A stretch of 22,359 nt of DNA from a virus, in IMG/VR virus record IMGVR_UViG_3300032309_000732, positions 1-22,359 of that record; one strand, written 5' to 3'. Positions 1 through 14,671 of this stretch are shown here, in pieces. A program made the translations under genes and the position numbers. Position 1 is the first letter of the stretch, and each line of letters begins with the position of its first letter. The notes under the pieces were generated by a model that was not told the DNA's origin, made no database searches, and was given only the letters and a program-made list of their open reading frames with translations.

Positions 1-40
1 GCATGCACATATAGATGGGTCAGTGAGACAAGTAAAATGA
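1..40 (+). CDS. 3' end of an upstream gene (partial)
   Basis: Frame 2 is open from the window edge and ends at a TGA at 38-40, giving the C-terminal residues HAHIDGSVRQVK. This TGA overlaps the ATG at 37 in an ATGA junction, the arrangement used repeatedly elsewhere in this window. Too little is present to name the product. Frame 1 is also open to the edge, so the next gene could in principle start further upstream, but its residue pattern fits a start at 37 better. Confidence 0.45.
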   Translation, partial: HAHIDGSVRQVK

Positions 41-1224
41 TAGAATTTAAGCAATTCATAACAGAAGCCAAAGATGATGGCAAAGTAAAGCATATCCACC
101 ATCCAGAGGATAGACCATTAATCGATGGTAAGAAGGGTTTTGAACATGCTATGGGCGTCTTACATCAAGCTTCTGAACATGTAGCTAAAGGTAAGAATGA
201 TTCAAGCATGACGATGAAGTATGATGGCTCACCAGCTATAGTGTTCGGTCATGATCCAAAGACAAAGAAGTTCTTCGTAGCTTCCAAGTCAGCATTCAAT
301 AAGAACCCAAAGATCAACTATACTCCTGAAGACATCGAACGAAACCATGGCCATGCTCCAGGTCTAGTAGAGAAACTTAAGGATGCATTAGCACACTTAC
401 CTAAGATCGCACCTAAAGAAGGTGTATTTCAAGGTGACTTGATGTTTAGTGGTAAAGATGTGGTTCATAATCAAAACGGGTCAGCATCATTCACACCAAA
501 TACAATCACATACTCTGCACATGGTACAGAAGCACATGCGGTCAAGAAAGCTAAACTTGGTGTGGTCGTCCATACTCAATACAATGGCAGAAACCTTGCA
601 GACATGAAGGCATCACCACAATTAACACATAAGTTTAAGACACATACTGACGTATGGAACAAGTCTGCAGTACACAATTCTAACATAACAAACTATGCAC
701 CAGCTGACCAACTTAAGTTTAATAAACATATGGAAGCTGCACAAAAGATCCATACAGAAGGTGGTAAGCAGATGTATACTGCTACTGAACAGCATCAAGG
801 TGAAGGTGGTCATCTAGCTACGTACATCAACCAAACAGTTCGTAACGTAGCAAAGCCTACCGCACAAGGATTACAGCAACATATCATGGATAAGTCTCAG
901 ATCGTTCAATCAAGACTTAAGACTGCTGATAAAGCCAAAGAGAAACAACAGTCAGCTCAAGCTGAAGTCAACTATATCCAAAAGAACCGAGAACACTATG
1001 ACAACCTATTAAAGATGCATCAACACCTTGCTGCAGCAAAGAACGTATTAGTGCATACGCTTAACCAACATCCTGGAACCCTCAGCCATCATATCGATGG
1101 TAAAGAGACGCATCCAGAAGGTTACGTAGTAACACATAAGAATGAACCTACAAAGTTAGTAAACAGAGCAGAGTTCAGTAGAGCAAACCTAATGAAAGTG
1201 AGGAAACCAAATGTTAACGTTTAA
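37..1224 (+). CDS. DUF6267-type protein with ligase-like motifs and a capsid-targeting N-terminus
   Basis: 395 aa. I recognise the overall pattern as the phage family DUF6267, from memory. Residues 61-66 read KYDGSP, which resembles nucleotidyltransferase motif I (KxDG) of ATP-dependent DNA and RNA ligases. VFQGDLMF (130-137) could be motif III, EGYVV (361-365) motif IV and K373 motif V. The interval between the motif III and IV candidates is filled by a Gln/Lys/His-rich, probably helical insertion, so the spacing is longer than in typical ligases. Activity is therefore inferred, not shown. The N-terminus MIEFKQFITE-A resembles the T4 internal protein III targeting sequence MKTYQEFIAE-A, and cleavage after E10 is predicted. 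It heads a run of genes with the same tag. The ATG overlaps the upstream stop; the ribosome binding site is weak. Confidence 0.72.
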   Translation: MIEFKQFITEAKDDGKVKHIHHPEDRPLIDGKKGFEHAMGVLHQASEHVAKGKNDSSMTMKYDGSPAIVFGHDPKTKKFFVASKSAFNKNPKINYTPEDIERNHGHAPGLVEKLKDALAHLPKIAPKEGVFQGDLMFSGKDVVHNQNGSASFTPNTITYSAHGTEAHAVKKAKLGVVVHTQYNGRNLADMKASPQLTHKFKTHTDVWNKSAVHNSNITNYAPADQLKFNKHMEAAQKIHTEGGKQMYTATEQHQGEGGHLATYINQTVRNVAKPTAQGLQQHIMDKSQIVQSRLKTADKAKEKQQSAQAEVNYIQKNREHYDNLLKMHQHLAAAKNVLVHTLNQHPGTLSHHIDGKETHPEGYVVTHKNEPTKLVNRAEFSRANLMKVRKPNVNV

Positions 1225-4316: not shown

Positions 4317-5894
4317 ATGAAGAACTATAGACAACTCATAAAGGGTTTGCCTTCCAAGACCGTCATCATGACAGTCGGAAGCTTTAACCCTCCTACCTCG
4401 GTCAACGAGATGGCATTCAAACTAGTAGATAAGCTAGTGGAATCCCATAATGCTGACCACATAATCTACGTTACAGAAGACAAGGATAACTTACCTATCG
4501 ATCGTAAGCTGCACTTCCTTGAGCTCATGTTTGGTGCTATGAACTTTAAGCCATTGAACGAGTCAAACTTAACTTCTGAATTAATTAGATTAAAGAGTAA
4601 GTATAAAGATGTCATCGTAGTATCTTCTGAAGATAAAGCCAAGCTATACGAGTCATTACAAGTGGTTACTACAAGCAACGACTTAGACCATTCTAAGATC
4701 AAGTCATATGTAACAAAAGGCGACTTTGCCTCATTTAAGAAACAGATGCCTTCTACACTAAGAGAGCTGGATGCTCGTAGGCTGATGAACGAGATGAGAC
4801 AAGTTACTGGCCTAGAGTTACTCAAAGAAGAAGTCAAGTTTACTGTAGATGCACTTAGAGAGAAGTATTTTAAAGGACAGATCTACCACATAGGTGATAT
4901 CGTTGAGTCTGCTGGACAACAATACGAGATCATGGATCGTGGTTCAAACTACCTAGTCGTTGTTAATAATACTGGCGACCTATCACGTAAATGGATAAAA
5001 GACGTAAAGTTAGTAGAAGCATGTTGGACTGGATATAAACAAGTTGGCACTAAGAAAAAGGGCAGCAGAACAGTCCCTAACTGTGTACCAGAATCTGTAT
5101 TAAACCCTGCAGATCCACATAAAGACTATGCTGAGAAGAGCAAGACTCTACAAGACTTATCGCGTAACAAAGACGTAGATCAAAAAGCTGTACAACAAAG
5201 ACGCTTAGATCTAGACAAAGAATATGGTAAACTTAAAGAAGAAGTATTTAGTTATAAAGGCTATGTACCTAAGAACCTTAACAGCGAATTAGTAGAAGCG
5301 TTCAAGCTTGCAGCGATAGACTCTAAAGATCCTATAGCAATGCTTAATGCTATCAAAACAACTGATACATACTTACAATTACATGGTAAGATTGGTGATA
5401 ATCCAGATATCAATCAGCTTAAGACATATAAAGATGCTCATATTAAAGCTACTGAAGCTTTACAAAAGATCGGTGTATACGATGCTGATGAAGATAAACC
5501 TGATACTAAGATAGCAAGAAACGTATTAACATATCAAGACTTCATGAAAGCTGGCAAAGAACATGTGCCAGAAAATCCAGAGAAATATGTAGGTGAACCT
5601 CATACGACTCCAGGCCATACGTTAGCTACACGTCAACATCTACGTAGACAAAAAGTTAAGTATGTAAATGAAGCAGCATCAGTTACAGACGGAGAAGTAG
5701 AAGGACAAGTGGTTACTAAGATTAAACCACTACCGATTGAACTAGCTCCAGCTCCTGATGAACCAGGCAAACAAAGAGGTAAAGGCAATAGTGCTTTCTT
5801 TGAGAAGAAGAATAAGAAAGTAGAGAAAGAAGCTCTAGACTACCTTGACTTAGATTCATGGTTAAGACAACAATCACAACAGGCACACGGATAA
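4317..5894 (+). CDS. Modular phage protein: degenerate nucleotidyltransferase head plus prohead-peptide-like modules
   Basis: 525 aa. Residues 15-165 resemble the intact nucleotidyltransferase at 1480: VGSFNPPTSVNEMA (20-33) matches [13 protein letters not shown] but GH is replaced by VN, and KIKSYVTKGDFASFKKQMP (127-145) matches [19 protein letters not shown] although the SGT signature is lost. This half is therefore probably catalytically dead. Next come a small module IYHIGDIVESAGQQYEIMDR (189-208) with GSNYLVVV, a CWTGYKQVGTKKKGS segment ending PNCVPE (236-259) that I recognise as a recurrent phage module, and a charged helical C-terminus. Possible prohead-protease sites include LVE-A at 234 and 327 and VNE-A near 450. 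The N-terminus MKNYRQLIKG starts like the tag but lacks Glu at position 10. It follows a late promoter. Confidence 0.68.
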   Translation: MKNYRQLIKGLPSKTVIMTVGSFNPPTSVNEMAFKLVDKLVESHNADHIIYVTEDKDNLPIDRKLHFLELMFGAMNFKPLNESNLTSELIRLKSKYKDVIVVSSEDKAKLYESLQVVTTSNDLDHSKIKSYVTKGDFASFKKQMPSTLRELDARRLMNEMRQVTGLELLKEEVKFTVDALREKYFKGQIYHIGDIVESAGQQYEIMDRGSNYLVVVNNTGDLSRKWIKDVKLVEACWTGYKQVGTKKKGSRTVPNCVPESVLNPADPHKDYAEKSKTLQDLSRNKDVDQKAVQQRRLDLDKEYGKLKEEVFSYKGYVPKNLNSELVEAFKLAAIDSKDPIAMLNAIKTTDTYLQLHGKIGDNPDINQLKTYKDAHIKATEALQKIGVYDADEDKPDTKIARNVLTYQDFMKAGKEHVPENPEKYVGEPHTTPGHTLATRQHLRRQKVKYVNEAASVTDGEVEGQVVTKIKPLPIELAPAPDEPGKQRGKGNSAFFEKKNKKVEKEALDYLDLDSWLRQQSQQAHG

Positions 5895-5896
5895 AT

Positions 5897-6346
5897 ATGG
5901 ATAAATTAATAGCATCTCTTAAAGTAGCATTAGGTAATACATTTACGATGTATTTTAAAGCACACTCATATCATTGGAACGTTGAAGGAATGCATTTTTC
6001 TATGTTTCATGACTTCTTCGGCGAAATCTATGAAGACGTATATGGTGCAGTAGATCCTCTTTCAGAAGAACTACGTAAACTTGATGCGTATGCTCCTATT
6101 AGTTTAATGGAGATCTATGGTTATAAGACTATCATGGAAGATAGTTCAAAACCAGATACAGCTATAGAGATGGTCATGAATTTATTGGCAGCTAACACGG
6201 AAGTATTAAATTGTCTATCACCATTATTTGATGAAGCTACAACACAAAAACAACAAGGTCTTGCAAACTTTATTGCAGATCGTATGGATAGACATAAATT
6301 TTTCGAATGGCAACTACAAGCAACACTTAAGAACCTCGGAGCGTAA
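5897..6346 (+). CDS. Dps-like ferritin (DNA-protecting, iron-oxidising protein)
   Basis: 149 aa from the ATG two nucleotides after the previous stop; an in-frame ATG at 5858 would add 13 poorly conserved residues. The Dps family forms 12-subunit shells that oxidise Fe(II) with peroxide at sites shared between subunits. The signature YHWNVEGMHF is followed by FHDFF, D and E at the expected spacing: aligned with E. coli Dps, the equivalents of H51, H63, D78 and E82 are present, while D67 is replaced by Gly. The usual Lys-rich DNA-binding tail is absent. It lies between genes for predicted head-internal proteins under a late promoter, so virion packaging or late DNA protection is plausible but untested; it lacks the targeting tag. 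Confidence 0.85.
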   Translation: MDKLIASLKVALGNTFTMYFKAHSYHWNVEGMHFSMFHDFFGEIYEDVYGAVDPLSEELRKLDAYAPISLMEIYGYKTIMEDSSKPDTAIEMVMNLLAANTEVLNCLSPLFDEATTQKQQGLANFIADRMDRHKFFEWQLQATLKNLGA

Positions 6347-6348
6347 GA

Positions 6349-9300
6349 ATGAAATCATACAAAGACATGATAAACGAAGTATTAACTAAGTCCACACCAG
6401 CGAGTGAATGGATTAAAGACTTTGTCGACTCTGATAATCCTAAATTTACAGGTAAATCTGCAGCTAAACGTAAACAGATGGCACTAGCTGCTTATTATGC
6501 TAAACAAAACGAATCTTATGCTGGTTCACAAAATAGTACAGCTATCACTGACATGAACGAAGATCATCTAGTACATGTATCCGATGGTTCTAAGTATGAT
6601 GAAGTCCCACACCCAAAAGATATTGAACATGTTAAGACTGGTGCAATGCATCATGGTGGTAAATGGGATAGTCATTCAGATAAAGGCGCATTCTTTAAGT
6701 TTAAATCGAAAGAAGATGCACAACACTTTGTAAGTCATGTTAACAAATGCCCACATAGAACATGCAATGCAGATTTAACAGAAGCTGTAGAGTATAAAGG
6801 TATCGGTACAGATGTAGTTGACAAGAAGAAGAAATTAAATCCACAACCAAATTTTACAACAGATAAAAAACAAGTTAAAGATTTTAAAGAAGAAAAAGAT
6901 AATAGAGAATATGGCTATGAAGGCGATATGGCTATTTCTCAATTAAAAACTATAATTCGACACTCTGAACACTTAATGGGTATGTTAAAACCTGATACCG
7001 ATCTACCAGAATGGGTCCAATCTAAAATTACTTTAGCTACTGATTATATGCAAACTGCACATGATTATCTAATGTCAGAAATAAACGAAGAAGTAGAACA
7101 GATCGATGAAGGCGAAAACGGTTTAGCAGCAAAAGCTAAGAAGTCTGGTATATCTTTATCTACATTAAAGACTGTATACAAAAGAGGCGTAGCAGCATGG
7201 AACTCTGGTCATCGTCCAGGTACAACTCCACAACAATGGGGAATGGCTCGAGTGAATTCATACATCACAAAAGGTTCAGGTACTTATGGTGGTGCTGATA
7301 AAGACTTACACGAAGATGCTCGTCTTGACAAAAAAGAATATCATAAAGGCATGAGCGATAGTACAGCTAAGGCTCGTGTTGCACATTGGAAAAATGCTGA
7401 TAAGTTATCTGATAGTAATCCAAAGGCATATGAACCAGCACCAGGTGATAAGACTGCAAAGACTACACCAAGCGTGCACACTAAAAAATATCATGCTATG
7501 TATGGAGAAGCTAAAGTGTATGATCCATTTACAAAGAAGATGGTTCCTACTAAACCAATCAAAGTTCAAGCTGGTGGCGGTGCAACTAGGAACGGAGTTC
7601 CAGTTGAGACAGGTCCATCAAAATATAAAGAAAAATTAACTAAAGAAGAAACTATTAATGAGTTAAAAGCCTCTACTCTAAAAAGTTATAGTAATAAATC
7701 ATGGCAAAAGGGACTAGATGCTGCTTATGATGCTGCACACAATGTTGATAAAGAAAAAAATTACCAATTAGCATCTAAAAGATTTGCTGGTAGTTTTAAA
7801 GCTAAATCAAAACTTGATAAAATGAAAGAAGAAGTAGAACAAATCGATGAGTTAGATAAAAAGACAATAGGTTCTTACGCTAAGAAAGCAACTAAAGATC
7901 TTAAATGGCAACAAACAATGAGACCATTTGACGCTAAGCGTATTAGTAATAGAGAAAAAGGTATTGATAAAGCTATTGACAAATTAACTAAAGAAGATGT
8001 ACAGATCGATGAGTTATCTAAAGGATTAGTTGCTAGATACGCAAATAAAGTAGCAAAAACTACACAAACTAATTATGATAAATCTAAAGATAAATTTCAA
8101 TTCTCATCAGGTAGACAAGATGGAATGAAAAATGCAGTTAAGAGATTAACTAAAGAAGAATCAGAACAAGTCGATGAGTCTAGTCTTCATCGTCAACACT
8201 TTCAAATGGTAGCTGATCTTATTAAAGGTCATGAATCTGCAGAGAAACGTAAAGAGCTTGCACACCATCATGCAGAGTTATTTAAGAAAGCAAATCCACG
8301 CTTTGATCATGCTAAGTTCATGAAGGCAGCTGGTGTTAACGAAGAAGTACAGATAGATGAAGTCTCTAAGTCAACATTAATGAGATACATCCCTAAAGCA
8401 TCGAGAGATGTAGGTTCACACACTTATGCAGGTAAAGAAGCCGGTGAATGGGCAAGCCATTACACAAGAGCCGGTGACTGGTCTGCAGCAGAGAAACACT
8501 CTAAGAAGTCTTATGCAGACTTTAAGAAAGCAAACAAACGTATCGCAGGTATAGATACCGCAACTAAGAAACTTGGTACACAAAAAGAAGAAGTACAAGT
8601 AGACGAAGCGGCACACGTGTATGATACAAAGACTAATAAAGTGCATAGCAAACACGACACATATAATAAAGCTATCAAAGCTGCAGAGAAACTAAATAAA
8701 GAACATCCAGGTTATGATACACCTGGAAACCTTGTAAGAGATAAATTTGGTGTTAAACGTATAGATGAAGCTATCGCTAAGAAGTTACCAGTACAACATG
8801 CAGTTGATGCAGTACATGCTACATTAGGTCCTAAGTCAGCTACACGTTTCTTATCACACTTAACACCAGGTTCAGATAAGCATACTACATGGGATAAAGT
8901 AAACGATGCATTAGTAAAACAAGGTGTACAGACACATCACATCGCTTCTATTGCACAAAAGACATCTCGTATGAACGAAGAAGTTATTGACGAATCAAGA
9001 GGTCATAAAGTATTAGCTACATTCTTTAAGAACAGAGAAGTTGCACAAAGATCTTATCAAGGTAATCCTGCTAAAGATGCTGAAGTAGCTCAAGGCGGTG
9101 GTAGTCCAGCAGATCAAGGTATCGCTGCAGCTAAGGCTGACTATAAGAAGATGAACAAAGAGAACGTTAATCCAGCTCTGATGGCCATCCTTAAGAAGAG
9201 ACAAGAAGCTCAAAAGAAAAAGCAAGAAGATAAAAAAAAAGTAAGTGAGGCAACGGCTCCAGCGGTGCATGCTGCTGAACCTAAAAAGACTAAGTCTACA

Positions 9301-9630
9301 CCTAAGGAATATGCTAGCGCTACTATACCAGGTACAAAACGTGTAGCACATGCAAAGCCTGATGATAACGAAGTAGGTGGTGGTACTGCTACAAGGATTG
9401 CTGAAGATCAATATACGTCAGAGTATAAGATCAAGTCTTATGTAGATCCGGTTACTGGTGAGAATAAGACTAGAAAGATTAGACCTCATCGTATTAATTT
9501 TAAATCATCTAAGATGAATGCTGCACCAGCACAAATGACAGAGCCAACAAAAGTTACAGAAGATGATAAAGTATACGATGAAAAATGGAAAAAAGTTAAA
9601 TTTACAGATTTTATAAAGGGAGCTAAGTAA
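6349..9630 (+). CDS. Giant modular head polyprotein with multiple predicted prohead-protease sites
   Basis: 1093 aa, very rich in Lys, Glu, Ala and His. It starts MKSYKDMINE-V, close to the T4 capsid-targeting tag MKTYQEFIAE-A. Eight [ILV]DE motifs, most preceded by an acidic E-E-V-x-Q stretch, stand at E254, E501, E555, E610, E671, E753, E807 and E882; weaker ones are LTE145, INE438 and VSE967. This matches the [IL]-x-E rule of T4 gp21 protease. Between them lie short modules, several of which I know from other phages: 12-54 (SDNPKFTGKSAAKRKQMAL), 187-254, 255-322 (DUF5824-type, AAWNSGHRPGTTPQQWGMAR), 341-387 (PKAYEPAPGDK...MYGE), 611-671, and a repeated SKxTLxxY module at 439, 502, 556 and 672. 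A GGAG stands about 7 nt before the ATG. Predicted role: precursor of packaged internal peptides. Processing is inferred. Confidence 0.75.
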   Translation: MKSYKDMINEVLTKSTPASEWIKDFVDSDNPKFTGKSAAKRKQMALAAYYAKQNESYAGSQNSTAITDMNEDHLVHVSDGSKYDEVPHPKDIEHVKTGAMHHGGKWDSHSDKGAFFKFKSKEDAQHFVSHVNKCPHRTCNADLTEAVEYKGIGTDVVDKKKKLNPQPNFTTDKKQVKDFKEEKDNREYGYEGDMAISQLKTIIRHSEHLMGMLKPDTDLPEWVQSKITLATDYMQTAHDYLMSEINEEVEQIDEGENGLAAKAKKSGISLSTLKTVYKRGVAAWNSGHRPGTTPQQWGMARVNSYITKGSGTYGGADKDLHEDARLDKKEYHKGMSDSTAKARVAHWKNADKLSDSNPKAYEPAPGDKTAKTTPSVHTKKYHAMYGEAKVYDPFTKKMVPTKPIKVQAGGGATRNGVPVETGPSKYKEKLTKEETINELKASTLKSYSNKSWQKGLDAAYDAAHNVDKEKNYQLASKRFAGSFKAKSKLDKMKEEVEQIDELDKKTIGSYAKKATKDLKWQQTMRPFDAKRISNREKGIDKAIDKLTKEDVQIDELSKGLVARYANKVAKTTQTNYDKSKDKFQFSSGRQDGMKNAVKRLTKEESEQVDESSLHRQHFQMVADLIKGHESAEKRKELAHHHAELFKKANPRFDHAKFMKAAGVNEEVQIDEVSKSTLMRYIPKASRDVGSHTYAGKEAGEWASHYTRAGDWSAAEKHSKKSYADFKKANKRIAGIDTATKKLGTQKEEVQVDEAAHVYDTKTNKVHSKHDTYNKAIKAAEKLNKEHPGYDTPGNLVRDKFGVKRIDEAIAKKLPVQHAVDAVHATLGPKSATRFLSHLTPGSDKHTTWDKVNDALVKQGVQTHHIASIAQKTSRMNEEVIDESRGHKVLATFFKNREVAQRSYQGNPAKDAEVAQGGGSPADQGIAAAKADYKKMNKENVNPALMAILKKRQEAQKKKQEDKKKVSEATAPAVHAAEPKKTKSTPKEYASATIPGTKRVAHAKPDDNEVGGGTATRIAEDQYTSEYKIKSYVDPVTGENKTRKIRPHRINFKSSKMNAAPAQMTEPTKVTEDDKVYDEKWKKVKFTDFIKGAK
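7663..8607 (+). repeat. Diverged protein-coding module repeats ([IL]DE-L-S-K-x-T-L-x-x-Y)
   Basis: Four related modules begin directly after a predicted cleavage Glu: 7663-7851 (LKASTLKSYSNKSW), 7852-8013 (LDKKTIGSYAKKATKD), 8014-8178 (LSKGLVARYANKVAK) and 8362-8607 (VSKSTLMRYIPKASRD). Each ends in a R/K-x-x-G-I/M-x-x-A-x-x-x-L-like helix and a KEE-rich linker. The interval 8179-8361 holds an unrelated module. The linker DNA itself is similar, for example GAAGAAGTAGAACA at 7087 and 7828. A second array lies at 10278-10680. Confidence 0.75.
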
Positions 9631-11021
9631 TGTTAAAGTTTAATGACTACTTAAAAGAGGCTGCATTGTCAGCTAAGCAAAAGAAGATCGCAGCGGTCGC
9701 TGGCGACAAAGACAAGATTGATGCTGCAGACTTAGCTGCTTTAAGAGCTGGTAAGAAACCTGTCGATGAAGCTAGTTGCTCTGGTAAAGATATGAAGAAA
9801 GAAGAGCTCGTTGGTAATCAACATAAGCTTGACAAAAATAAAAACGGTAAACTAGATGCTCATGACTTTAAGTTACTTCGTAAAGAAGCTAAAGACGGTT
9901 GGAGTAAAAATGATTCATTAGCTAAACCAATAACATCTAGTCAAGCTATGGCAGATCACTCTAAATACTTTAATAAAGTTACTAAATTAGATCCTAAAAC
10001 GGGTGAACCTATTAAGAAAGATGTTAAAGAAGAAGTAGAAGAGTTAGACGAAGGCCGTGTTAAAGAACTTGCAATGGATCTTAAAGATATGAGTCATGAC
10101 GAGTTCCATAAACGATATGGCAAACCTAAGTCTCATTTCGATCCTACAAACTTTAAGAAACCAGTAGAACCTGGTAAAGGTATGGATCGTGCTAAAGCTT
10201 TAGCTCAACGCGGTATGCAATCATTATCTAAAGAAGAAGTAGAACGTATCGAAGAAAAGTTATCACAGTTAGATGAGTTATCAAAGAATACTTTAGGTTC
10301 ATATGTTAAACGTTCTGCTAATCAAGCTATTGTTAAGAGTTTAGCAAATCCTAAAGATGATTCTGATGACATGAAAACTATTGCTAAACGTGAAAAAGGT
10401 ATTAATTTAGCAACATCAAAACTAGCTAAAGAAGAGACAGAACAAATCGATGAGTTATCAAAGAAGACTTTAGGTTCATATGTAAATAAAGCAGCTAAAG
10501 ATTCACGTATCCATGGCCAAATAGCCACTGATTTTGAAAACACTGCTGATAAAGCTAGAAAGCAATCAAAGAAAGATTCTTTTGAAAGATTAAACAGAAA
10601 ATATTTAGAAAAATCATGGAAGCGTGAAGATGGTATTGCTAAAGCTGTAGGTAAATTAACTAAAGAAGAAGTTTCAGCTGAGATGTCACCATATCTAAAA
10701 GCTACGCTTAAAGTTATGGACGAAGGTAAGATCGATAACCTTAGAGATGCACAGAAGTTAAGAAGAGATACACAATCAGCATATGAAAAAGATTACAAAC
10801 CAGACACAAGTCATCCGCATATCCAAGTAGTTAAAGGTAGTGCGTATGGCGGTGCGAACCAAAAAGATGATGAAGGTGATGAGAAGCCTGATGAAACAAA
10901 AGAGAAAAAAGGTCGTGGCAGACCTACTGGATCTAAATCAGGTGCTAGACAAAAAGGTGGTGGACATGAAGACGGCGGTATTCCTGTGCATAACTTAAAC
11001 TTGCCAAAATCATATAAATAG
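9630..11021 (+). CDS. Second modular head polyprotein, with an EF-hand and SKxTLGSY modules
   Basis: 463 aa, starting MLKFNDYLKE-A, a predicted capsid-targeting and cleavage signal. Residues 68-79 (DKNKNGKLDAHD) form a canonical EF-hand calcium loop: D1, N3, N5, G6, L8, D9, D12. An upstream GDKDKIDAADLAALR (25-39) looks like a degenerate first hand lacking two loop residues, separated from the second by VDE47. Further predicted protease sites are LDE141, LDE216, IDE275 and MDE365. Two LSKxTLGSYV modules (217-275 and 276 to about 348) are homologous to those in the preceding protein. The C-terminus holds a GRGRPTGSKSGARQKGGG segment resembling an AT-hook (GRGRP) followed by a basic Gly-rich tail, which could bind AT-rich DNA. 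The start overlaps the upstream stop (TAATG) with AGGGAG before it. Confidence 0.72.
   Translation: MLKFNDYLKEAALSAKQKKIAAVAGDKDKIDAADLAALRAGKKPVDEASCSGKDMKKEELVGNQHKLDKNKNGKLDAHDFKLLRKEAKDGWSKNDSLAKPITSSQAMADHSKYFNKVTKLDPKTGEPIKKDVKEEVEELDEGRVKELAMDLKDMSHDEFHKRYGKPKSHFDPTNFKKPVEPGKGMDRAKALAQRGMQSLSKEEVERIEEKLSQLDELSKNTLGSYVKRSANQAIVKSLANPKDDSDDMKTIAKREKGINLATSKLAKEETEQIDELSKKTLGSYVNKAAKDSRIHGQIATDFENTADKARKQSKKDSFERLNRKYLEKSWKREDGIAKAVGKLTKEEVSAEMSPYLKATLKVMDEGKIDNLRDAQKLRRDTQSAYEKDYKPDTSHPHIQVVKGSAYGGANQKDDEGDEKPDETKEKKGRGRPTGSKSGARQKGGGHEDGGIPVHNLNLPKSYK
10278..10680 (+). repeat. Second array of SKxTLGSY modules
   Basis: Two modules, 10278-10454 and 10455 to about 10680, encode LSKNTLGSYVKRSA and LSKKTLGSYVNKAAKD, each preceded by [LI]DE. 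Each ends with a R-E-K/D-G-I-x-x-A-x-x-K-L-x-K-E-E sequence. They are closer to each other and to the 7852 module than to the remaining copies, which suggests exchange or duplication between the two polyprotein genes. Confidence 0.75.
11013..11020 (+). promoter_or_regulatory. T4-type late promoter TATAAATA
   Basis: An exact TATAAATA overlapping the end of the upstream gene, 24 nt before the ATG at 11044. The expected start site near 11026 leaves a short leader containing the AAGGAG at 11031-11036. It would give strong late expression of the downstream virion protein. Confidence 0.8.
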
Positions 11022-13579: not shown

Positions 13580-13958
13580 TAACGAGTTAGAACAATTAGA
13601 ACGAATAGTTCTTAAGTTAGATGATTCAATTGATAAGTTAACAGAGGTTTCTGCTAACATTAGTAAATTACTAGCCGTACAGGAACAGCGTATGAATACA
13701 ATAGAAAAAGATACAGATAGGAATCAAGATGATATCCGTCATTTGTATAGCAAACTTGATTCAGTATCTAAAGCTTTAACAGATAAGATGGATGAATCAA
13801 TGAAGAATTCATCTGCTGGCCATGATCGCATTGAGAAAGCTTTCGAGCTTAAAGTACAAGAAGTTAATAAAAGATTAAATGCATTAGAAGCATGGCGTTG
13901 GTTGGTTATTGGGGGCGCGATTGTAATCGGTTGGTTTGTTAATAGATTCTTTAAATGA
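13569..13958 (+). CDS. Coiled-coil protein with C-terminal membrane anchor (XhlA-like)
   Basis: 129 aa. Heptad-rich helices occupy about 5-105 (ELEQLERIVLKLDDSIDKL, ISKLLAVQEQRMNTIEKD), followed by one hydrophobic segment WRWLVIGGAIVIGWFVNRFF at the extreme C-terminus. This coiled coil plus tail-anchor architecture resembles XhlA-type proteins of phage lysis regions. It overlaps the spanin-like gene by 11 nt, supporting a lysis or membrane role. There is no holin or endolysin motif in the protein, so an accessory function is the safer reading. It ends in an ATGA overlap with the next gene. Confidence 0.62.
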   Translation: MANSNELEQLERIVLKLDDSIDKLTEVSANISKLLAVQEQRMNTIEKDTDRNQDDIRHLYSKLDSVSKALTDKMDESMKNSSAGHDRIEKAFELKVQEVNKRLNALEAWRWLVIGGAIVIGWFVNRFFK

Positions 13959-14671
13959 ACTATACGCAATATATCACTGAATTAAAACTTCAACTGCAAT
14001 ACCATTCTGAGTTGAATCCTAAACTATGGGATGATTTCCAATTAAAATCTCAAGTAAGAGACAAACTACTTCAGTTTGCAGAAGTGTGGAGAGAATTTGC
14101 TAAAATACCTAAAAACGCTGTCAAAGAAGTTATCCTTCTCGGGGGAAACGCTAATTACAATTATACTGATATGTCTGACCTTGACGTACATTTGGTCGTT
14201 GACAAGTCTTTAATTGCTAAAGATAATCCATTATTAGATGACTACCTACAAGACAAAAAACAAATGTGGACGATGGCTCATAAGATAACCATCCTTGGAT
14301 ATGGACTAGAACCATACGCACAAGATGAGTCTGTACAATACCCAAAGAATCAAGGCGTATATTCATTAACAAACAATGAATGGATCTGCAAACCAGTATT
14401 CATTGGTGATGAGATGATTAAGGACCCATACCTTAAGAAAAAGGTTAAGTTCTATATGCATATGATAGATGACATGATTAAAAACCATGTAGACCTTGAC
14501 ACAGTAAAATACTTCAAAGAAAAACTTAGAGACATGAGAGGTGCTGCCATTAAACGTGGTGGAGAGTTTTCTTTCGAGAACCTAGTCTTTAAAGAACTAC
14601 GCAACCAAGGATACTTAGATAAACTATCCGCCTATCAAAGAACTAATCAAGATCAAGAATTGAGTTTATAA
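13955..14671 (+). CDS. Pol-beta-type nucleotidyltransferase with capsid-targeting N-terminus
   Basis: 238 aa. LLGGNANYNYTDMSDLDVHLVVD (61-83) is a pol-beta superfamily active-site pattern: GGN, then S-D-L-D with metal ligands D75 and D77. The third acidic residue is probably in the following strand (around ILGYGLEPYAQD), but I cannot place it firmly. Proteins of this type transfer NMP to RNA, small molecules or proteins; the substrate is unknown. The N-terminus MNYTQYITE-L fits the packaged-protein tag with one residue fewer, so it may be cut after E9 and injected. The C-terminal half (about 150-238) is helical and basic. The gene is joined to the preceding one by ATGA and precedes a likely transcription boundary. 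Confidence 0.78.
   Translation: MNYTQYITELKLQLQYHSELNPKLWDDFQLKSQVRDKLLQFAEVWREFAKIPKNAVKEVILLGGNANYNYTDMSDLDVHLVVDKSLIAKDNPLLDDYLQDKKQMWTMAHKITILGYGLEPYAQDESVQYPKNQGVYSLTNNEWICKPVFIGDEMIKDPYLKKKVKFYMHMIDDMIKNHVDLDTVKYFKEKLRDMRGAAIKRGGEFSFENLVFKELRNQGYLDKLSAYQRTNQDQELSL

Follow-up and report, generated by a model that had tools for sequence, protein, structure and literature searches.

The open reading frame at positions 37-1224 (+ strand) of a 22.4-kb IMG/VR virus record, analysed here over its whole length of 22,359 nucleotides (the window), encodes a 395-aa protein of the family DUF6267, which we read as a divergent RNA-ligase-type covalent nucleotidyltransferase that is delivered in the virion and probably mends host RNA cut by defence nucleases. 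We put the probability of this reading at roughly 0.55. It draws on the family assignment, motif conservation, fold, N-terminal tag and gene neighbourhood, all supported by computation, from which we infer catalysis, packaging, an RNA substrate and a role against host defence.

Family, active-site motifs and predicted fold

The reading frame is a full-length DUF6267 (Pfam PF19782, E 1.3e-95) and, scoring 321 bits against a curated cut-off of 27, a member of that Pfam family; it also matches PHROG 455 (function unknown). At least 470 deposited phage records contain a relative, each less than 60% identical to the window protein. The majority are cyanophages, and a minority are phages of Methylophilales, Pelagibacter, Stenotrophomonas, Pseudoalteromonas and Vibrio. 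IMG/VR environmental contigs hold further hundreds. Matches in cellular genome contigs numbered only 36, almost all of them in MAGs, and among the contigs checked several had T4-like phage genes around the match. A search of open-access text found no paper naming DUF6267 and no report of a head-packaged ligase. The features of the protein, by window coordinates, are as follows.

37-1224, + strand: DUF6267 protein, 395 aa, predicted RNA-ligase-like covalent nucleotidyltransferase (PF19782, AlphaFold2 model, VIA-align)
37-66, + strand: capsid-targeting sequence (CTS) MIEFKQFITE, with a predicted prohead-protease cut after E10 (I-T-E/A; entropy, model, T4 control)
217-228, + strand: motif I, K61-Y-D-G64, K61 being the predicted nucleophile lysine (K, D and G invariant in 74/74)
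283-291, + strand: motif Ia-like S83-K84-S85 (K84 invariant in 74/74)
430-438, + strand: motif III-like Q132-G-D134, Asp replacing Glu (Q and D invariant in 74/74)
700-1062, + strand: helical insertion that separates motif IV from the motif III region (residues 222-342; DSSP on the model)
1117-1128, + strand: motif IV, E361-G-Y-V364 (E, G and V invariant in 74/74)
1153-1167, + strand: motif V-like K373-L-V-N-R377 (K and R invariant in 74/74; V375 in 69/74)

Conservation was assessed in an alignment of 74 DUF6267 homologues, 31-74% identical to the window protein. K61, D63, G64, Q132, D134, E361, G362, V364, K373 and R377 are invariant in all 74, and further invariant residues include H19, H22, E24, K84, H179, N265, K335, F380 and N384. 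The invariant residues fit the ligase series of motifs, namely I (KxDG), Ia (S-K), III (an acid), IV (EGxV) and V (K), and the ordered, spaced pattern is present in 73 of the 74 members compared to one of 20,000 shuffles of the window protein. The preliminary description of this reading frame had picked out K61-Y-D-G, VFQGDLMF, EGYVV (361-365) and K373, all of which lie at those residues, and had proposed K61, E361 and K373 as the positions on which a ligase assignment would depend; all three are invariant. The invariance of the motifs is thus well supported. Two of them depart from the usual form: the acidic position of motif III is D134 and not Glu, and in motif V, K373 is followed by V375 with no KxK, together with the invariant R377. 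The usual second lysine of motif V is therefore absent, position 375 being valine in 69 of the 74 members.

The AlphaFold2 model of the window protein (pLDDT 91.4, pTM 0.88) has K61 as the last residue of a strand (58-61), after which come a loop and a further strand (67-72), and places motifs IV and V on two consecutive strands (362-367 and 370-375), as the covalent-nucleotidyltransferase fold predicts. VIA-align 2 was run on the candidate list obtained from the PDB with Foldseek, and the top 50 rows were taken. All 50 are covalent-nucleotidyltransferase ligases, RNA ligases first: the best match is Naegleria Rnl (Z 8.7, 184 residues, 4.1 Å), then TbREL1 and T4 Rnl1 (both Z 8.0), fungal Trl1 (7.8) and T4 Rnl2 (7.6), with DNA ligases at Z 6.8 and below. 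As a guard against a single lucky model, a second was built for the DUF6267 protein of cyanophage S-SM1, which is 26% identical and has a shorter helical part (pLDDT 83.8). Its top 50 rows are again all ligases, and 31 of the first 33 are annotated as RNA or tRNA ligases (Naegleria Rnl Z 8.2 over 175 residues at 4.1 Å, T4 Rnl1 7.7, Trl1 7.3). The aligner's own note rates a Z of about 8 as middling, and no unrelated fold stands among the top rows of either model; the argument for the fold therefore rests on the unanimity of the lists, on two models that agree and on the invariant motifs, all taken together. Foldseek alone, run against the PDB with the window model, returned no significant match. 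CorA chains in the Foldseek list were rejected, their long helices being matched at about 21 Å rmsd. The nucleotidyltransferase fold that had been suggested from the motifs was thus recovered in two separate models, and DUF6267 very probably has a ligase-type fold, as far as predicted structures can tell.

The helical insertion is the most variable part of the protein (mean entropy 2.32 bits over the 74 homologues, against 1.61 and 1.63 in its flanks) and is reduced in the S-SM1 clade. In the model the window protein stops 22 residues past K373, with one helix and a disordered tail, and DUF6267 thus lacks the OB domain of DNA ligases and capping enzymes.

No ligase came up in sequence searches of the PDB, whether the query was the single protein or the profile of the 74 members; when these members were scanned against Pfam, the only strong family was DUF6267, and no link to a ligase emerged. 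PF09511 (Rnl1) and PF09414 (Rnl2) are absent both from the matches of the window protein and from the 25 families most often matched by the 74 members, and we therefore do not file DUF6267 under either. Alignment of profiles with hhalign gave weak values against the T4 Rnl1 family (E 0.025, with EGYV aligned on EGYV and K373 on the motif V lysine) and the Rnl2 family (E 0.16). However, Rnl1 and Rnl2, which are undoubted relatives, gave an E of only 0.0097 against each other, so that the method is powerless at such distance and the failure of sequence methods is not decisive. The HMM comparison with ligase families that the preliminary description had proposed as a check gave no match to a family HMM, and yielded this weak Rnl1 alignment of motif IV and K373.

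Gene neighbourhood and candidate substrate

Further genes of the window bear on what the protein may do.

2-40, + strand: 3' end (12 codons and the stop) of a HAD-type phosphatase gene lying upstream, whose stop overlaps the start of DUF6267 (ATGA; identity to L001)
1211-1486, + strand: DUF6321 protein with CTS MLTFKEYLKE (PF19846 E 3.1e-24; strict CTS)
1474-2088, + strand: HxGH nucleotidyltransferase, cytidyltransferase-like (PHROG 3041 E 9.4e-56; PF01467 E 1.4e-4)
6349-9630, + strand: 1093-aa repetitive protein with CTS-like MKSYKDMINE (loose CTS; DUF5824 segment)
9630-11021, + strand: 463-aa repetitive protein with CTS MLKFNDYLKE (strict CTS)
13955-14671, + strand: weak Pol-beta-type nucleotidyltransferase with CTS-like MNYTQYITE (loose CTS; PHROG 36119; NTP_transf_2 E 0.019)

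Positions 1-100 of the window are identical to 1049-1148 of the related contig L001, where the HAD protein is complete (202 aa), carries a CTS of its own (MLKFKEYITEQ...FDIDDTLFHT) and matches PHROG 415, annotated 'polynucleotide kinase' (E 1.1e-8); its stop overlaps the DUF6267 start as ATGA, an arrangement of translational coupling. A HAD-like gene lies within 3 kb upstream of DUF6267 in 22 of 157 informative relatives, and is directly coupled in 13. Downstream, some relatives encode polynucleotide-kinase-like P-loop proteins, and some a tagged fusion of HxGH and P-loop domains directly after DUF6267. Tagged adenylate-kinase-like proteins adjoin it in three others (L154:1261-1863, L300:7224-7802, L306:1239-1826; PF00406 E 1e-37 to 1e-41) and could, from their sequences, be injected adenylate kinases. 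No kinase is adjacent to DUF6267 in the window, and all AAA_33 matches in six long relatives fall below the family cut-off, so that a kinase is not established there.

Several other genes of the window are also of note. The small DUF6321 protein lies between DUF6267 and the HxGH enzyme, and several PHROGs contain larger phage proteins that end in a DUF6321 domain. The 1093-aa and 463-aa tagged proteins (6349-11021) consist of degenerate repeats with EEVEQIDEL-K-TLGSYVKKA-like units; since the repeated I-D-E fits an L/I-X-E cut site, cleavage in the head may break them into many fragments. The Pol-beta-type protein contains LLGGNANYNYTDMSDLDVH, shares its CTS-like tag with the relative G001 and is possibly another injected nucleotide-adding enzyme. 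An untagged Dps/ferritin-like protein (5858-6346, PF00210 E 7e-18) lies inside the cluster of tagged genes.

An HxGH nucleotidyltransferase is fused to DUF6267 or lies within 3.5 kb downstream in 89 of 131 relatives; the fusion itself is found in 8 of 185 non-redundant relatives, six of the eight with a recognised N-terminal tag. This tight linkage, along with the adenylate-kinase-like neighbours and the non-standard motif V, would also suit a different reaction, in which DUF6267 AMPylates or caps a host protein or small molecule and forms with the HxGH enzyme a two-step pair modifying a cofactor or nucleotide. We consider this unlikely, as neighbours of the phosphatase and polynucleotide-kinase-like types suggest an action on nucleic-acid ends.

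Such ends could be those of the phage DNA, the injected protein sealing nicks or adenylating the entering genome ends and so protecting them before replication. DNA ligases belong to the same superfamily and are among the structural matches (Z up to 6.8), and a packaged DUF6267 would sit next to DNA in the head. However, both models place RNA ligases above DNA ligases, the chain stops just past motif V and so lacks the C-terminal OB domain that DNA ligases normally have, and four of six long relatives encode a separate DNA ligase (PF01068); a DNA-end enzyme is accordingly improbable. No RNA ligase of PF09414 or PF09511 was detected in the six long relatives, whose records may be incomplete; the PF09511 search recovered T4 Rnl1 as a control. 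A search of 160 kb of G001 yielded no tRNA genes. Phage RNA ligases are known to mend tRNA cut by host defence, together with phosphatases, kinases and nucleotide-adding enzymes (PMC7824862, PMC9503650). Of the two roles offered in the preliminary description, we favour RNA repair over the sealing of DNA ends because RNA ligases come first in the structural comparison, relatives have a DNA ligase, phosphatase and kinase genes are neighbours, and such tRNA repair has been published.

The head-targeting tag and proposed delivery

In T4, the first 10 residues of internal proteins direct them into the prohead; mutagenesis of IPIII indicates a role for residues 4 and 7 in targeting and for residues 8 and 10 in processing, and cleavage by gp21 follows L/I-X-E (PMC9026906). 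The N-terminus of the window protein, MIEFKQFITE, fits this pattern (F/Y4, F/Y7, I/L8, E10). Among the 74 homologues, entropy dips at residues 4, 7, 8 and 10 (0.19, 0.96, 0.81 and 0.37 bits) while residues 2, 3, 5, 6 and 9 vary freely, and residues 1-10 are unfolded in the AlphaFold2 model (pLDDT 33), a combination that is the signature of a sorting signal. As a control, the regular expression used for the CTS matched 2 of 267 T4 ORFs of at least 80 aa, exactly IPII and IPIII; it is thus specific, and incompletely sensitive since IPI and Alt were missed. It matched three ORFs strictly and six loosely across the window, compared to 0.001 and 0.0175 expected, and two long relatives have six and five tagged ORFs compared to 0.32 and 0.49 expected. 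A gp21-type prohead protease (PF03420) is encoded in all six long relatives.

A link to the virion comes from S-SM1, where a scan of the 49 kb examined gave SSM1_190 (T4-GC190) as the only CTS match. This gene lies directly downstream of the S-SM1 DUF6267 gene (T4-GC71) and overlaps it, and its cytidyltransferase-like product has been detected in S-SM1 virions by mass spectrometry (PMC3037559). The capsid-targeting tag proposed in the preliminary description is therefore borne out by the T4 and S-SM1 controls and by the enrichment within the window, and we regard a head tag on the window protein as highly probable from its sequence.

The tag is present in most DUF6267 members, for example those of Methylophilales phage Melnitz and Stenotrophomonas phage DLP6; some cyanophage members are without it, including the S-SM1 clade, in which the tag is on GC190 and not on DUF6267, and the virion documentation covers only this adjacent GC190 of S-SM1. 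These facts would suit an enzyme that is not packaged, the N-terminal motif being coincidental and the protein working in the cell after its expression. Against this, the tag pattern is specific in T4 and S-SM1 and enriched in the window and its relatives, and residues 4, 7, 8 and 10 appear to be under selection, which leaves coincidence quite improbable. It is very unlikely that DUF6267 is mainly a structural protein of head core or morphogenesis whose ligase fold is no longer enzymatic, as the head-targeting tag, the altered motifs III and V and the dual role of rnlA noted in the T4 record (gp63, Rnl1, acts in tail-fibre attachment) might suggest, since no active-site residue changes even in homologues of 31% identity, whereas the helical region varies freely.

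Two further tags deserve mention. A degenerate second HxGH-like protein of the window (4317-5894, MKNYRQLIKG) is missing E10; the relatives G001, G002 and L008 have MK(N/D)YRQLI(R/K)E, and the tag thus seems to have decayed in the window phage. In L260 and L262 a stop codon breaks the conserved C-terminal KNWKNEKV of DUF6267 where the tag of the next gene, MKKFSAFL, is encoded in another frame, so that the gene overlap appears to be constrained by the downstream tag.

Proposed mechanism and comparison with known systems

We propose that the N-terminal CTS would draw DUF6267 into the prohead core, that the gp21-type protease would trim it after E10, and that the protein would be kept in the head beside the DNA and then injected. 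K61 would take AMP from ATP (or another nucleotide) and hand it to a 5'-phosphate end, with D134, E361, K373 and R377 surrounding the active site. From time zero, DUF6267 and the co-packaged HAD phosphatase and HxGH nucleotidyltransferase, with the P-loop kinases of relatives, could repair and join broken ends, the most likely targets being host RNA or tRNA cleaved by defence nucleases. The protein is probably catalytically active, and we would give about even odds that it seals RNA ends in the newly infected cell. A broader suggestion is made more tentatively, that the heads of T4-type phages of fresh and sea water may contain a complete kit for repairing nucleic-acid ends, which would be injected and would mend RNA damaged by host defence ahead of phage gene expression. 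Such a kit might comprise the ligase-like enzyme, the phosphatase, nucleotidyltransferases and, in some relatives, kinases, and each part would have a tag of its own or share one.

If this is correct, a family without a function gains a fold and an enzyme class, and the T4 route of head delivery carries repair enzymes besides inhibitors and ADP-ribosyltransferases. A simple N-terminal pattern would then predict the proteins that a T4-type phage injects, and what cyanophages inject alongside their DNA would become directly testable.

Among known enzymes, DUF6267 has its predicted fold and KxDG motif I in common with T4 RNA ligase 1 (gp63/RnlA, PF09511) and the Rnl2-type ligases (PF09414; Naegleria Rnl, TbREL1, T4 RnlB), RNA ligases being its nearest solved structures. 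As in DUF6267, Rnl1 has EGYV as motif IV, followed by a motif V lysine, and its family has K-S-K at a similar distance past motif I as S83-K84-S85. Unlike either group, DUF6267 has Asp in motif III, a single motif V lysine with an invariant arginine, and a head-targeting tag; ahead of motif IV it contains a large insertion of helices, and it lacks a C-terminal domain. The tag has the same key positions (4, 7, 8 and 10) as those of T4 IPII and IPIII; IPI, a nuclease inhibitor, and Alt, an ADP-ribosyltransferase, are among the T4 proteins delivered by a CTS, whereas here the payload is a predicted ligase-like enzyme. GC190, a core virion protein of cyanophages, belongs to a different enzyme superfamily (HxGH), but is the immediate downstream neighbour of DUF6267, to which its type of domain is sometimes fused. 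The HAD, P-loop and ligase-like proteins of this neighbourhood recall the phosphatase, kinase and ligase logic of tRNA repair by T4 Pnkp and Rnl1; however, T4 Pnkp and Rnl1 are produced after infection, whereas several parts of the DUF6267 neighbourhood carry a tag for delivery in the virion.
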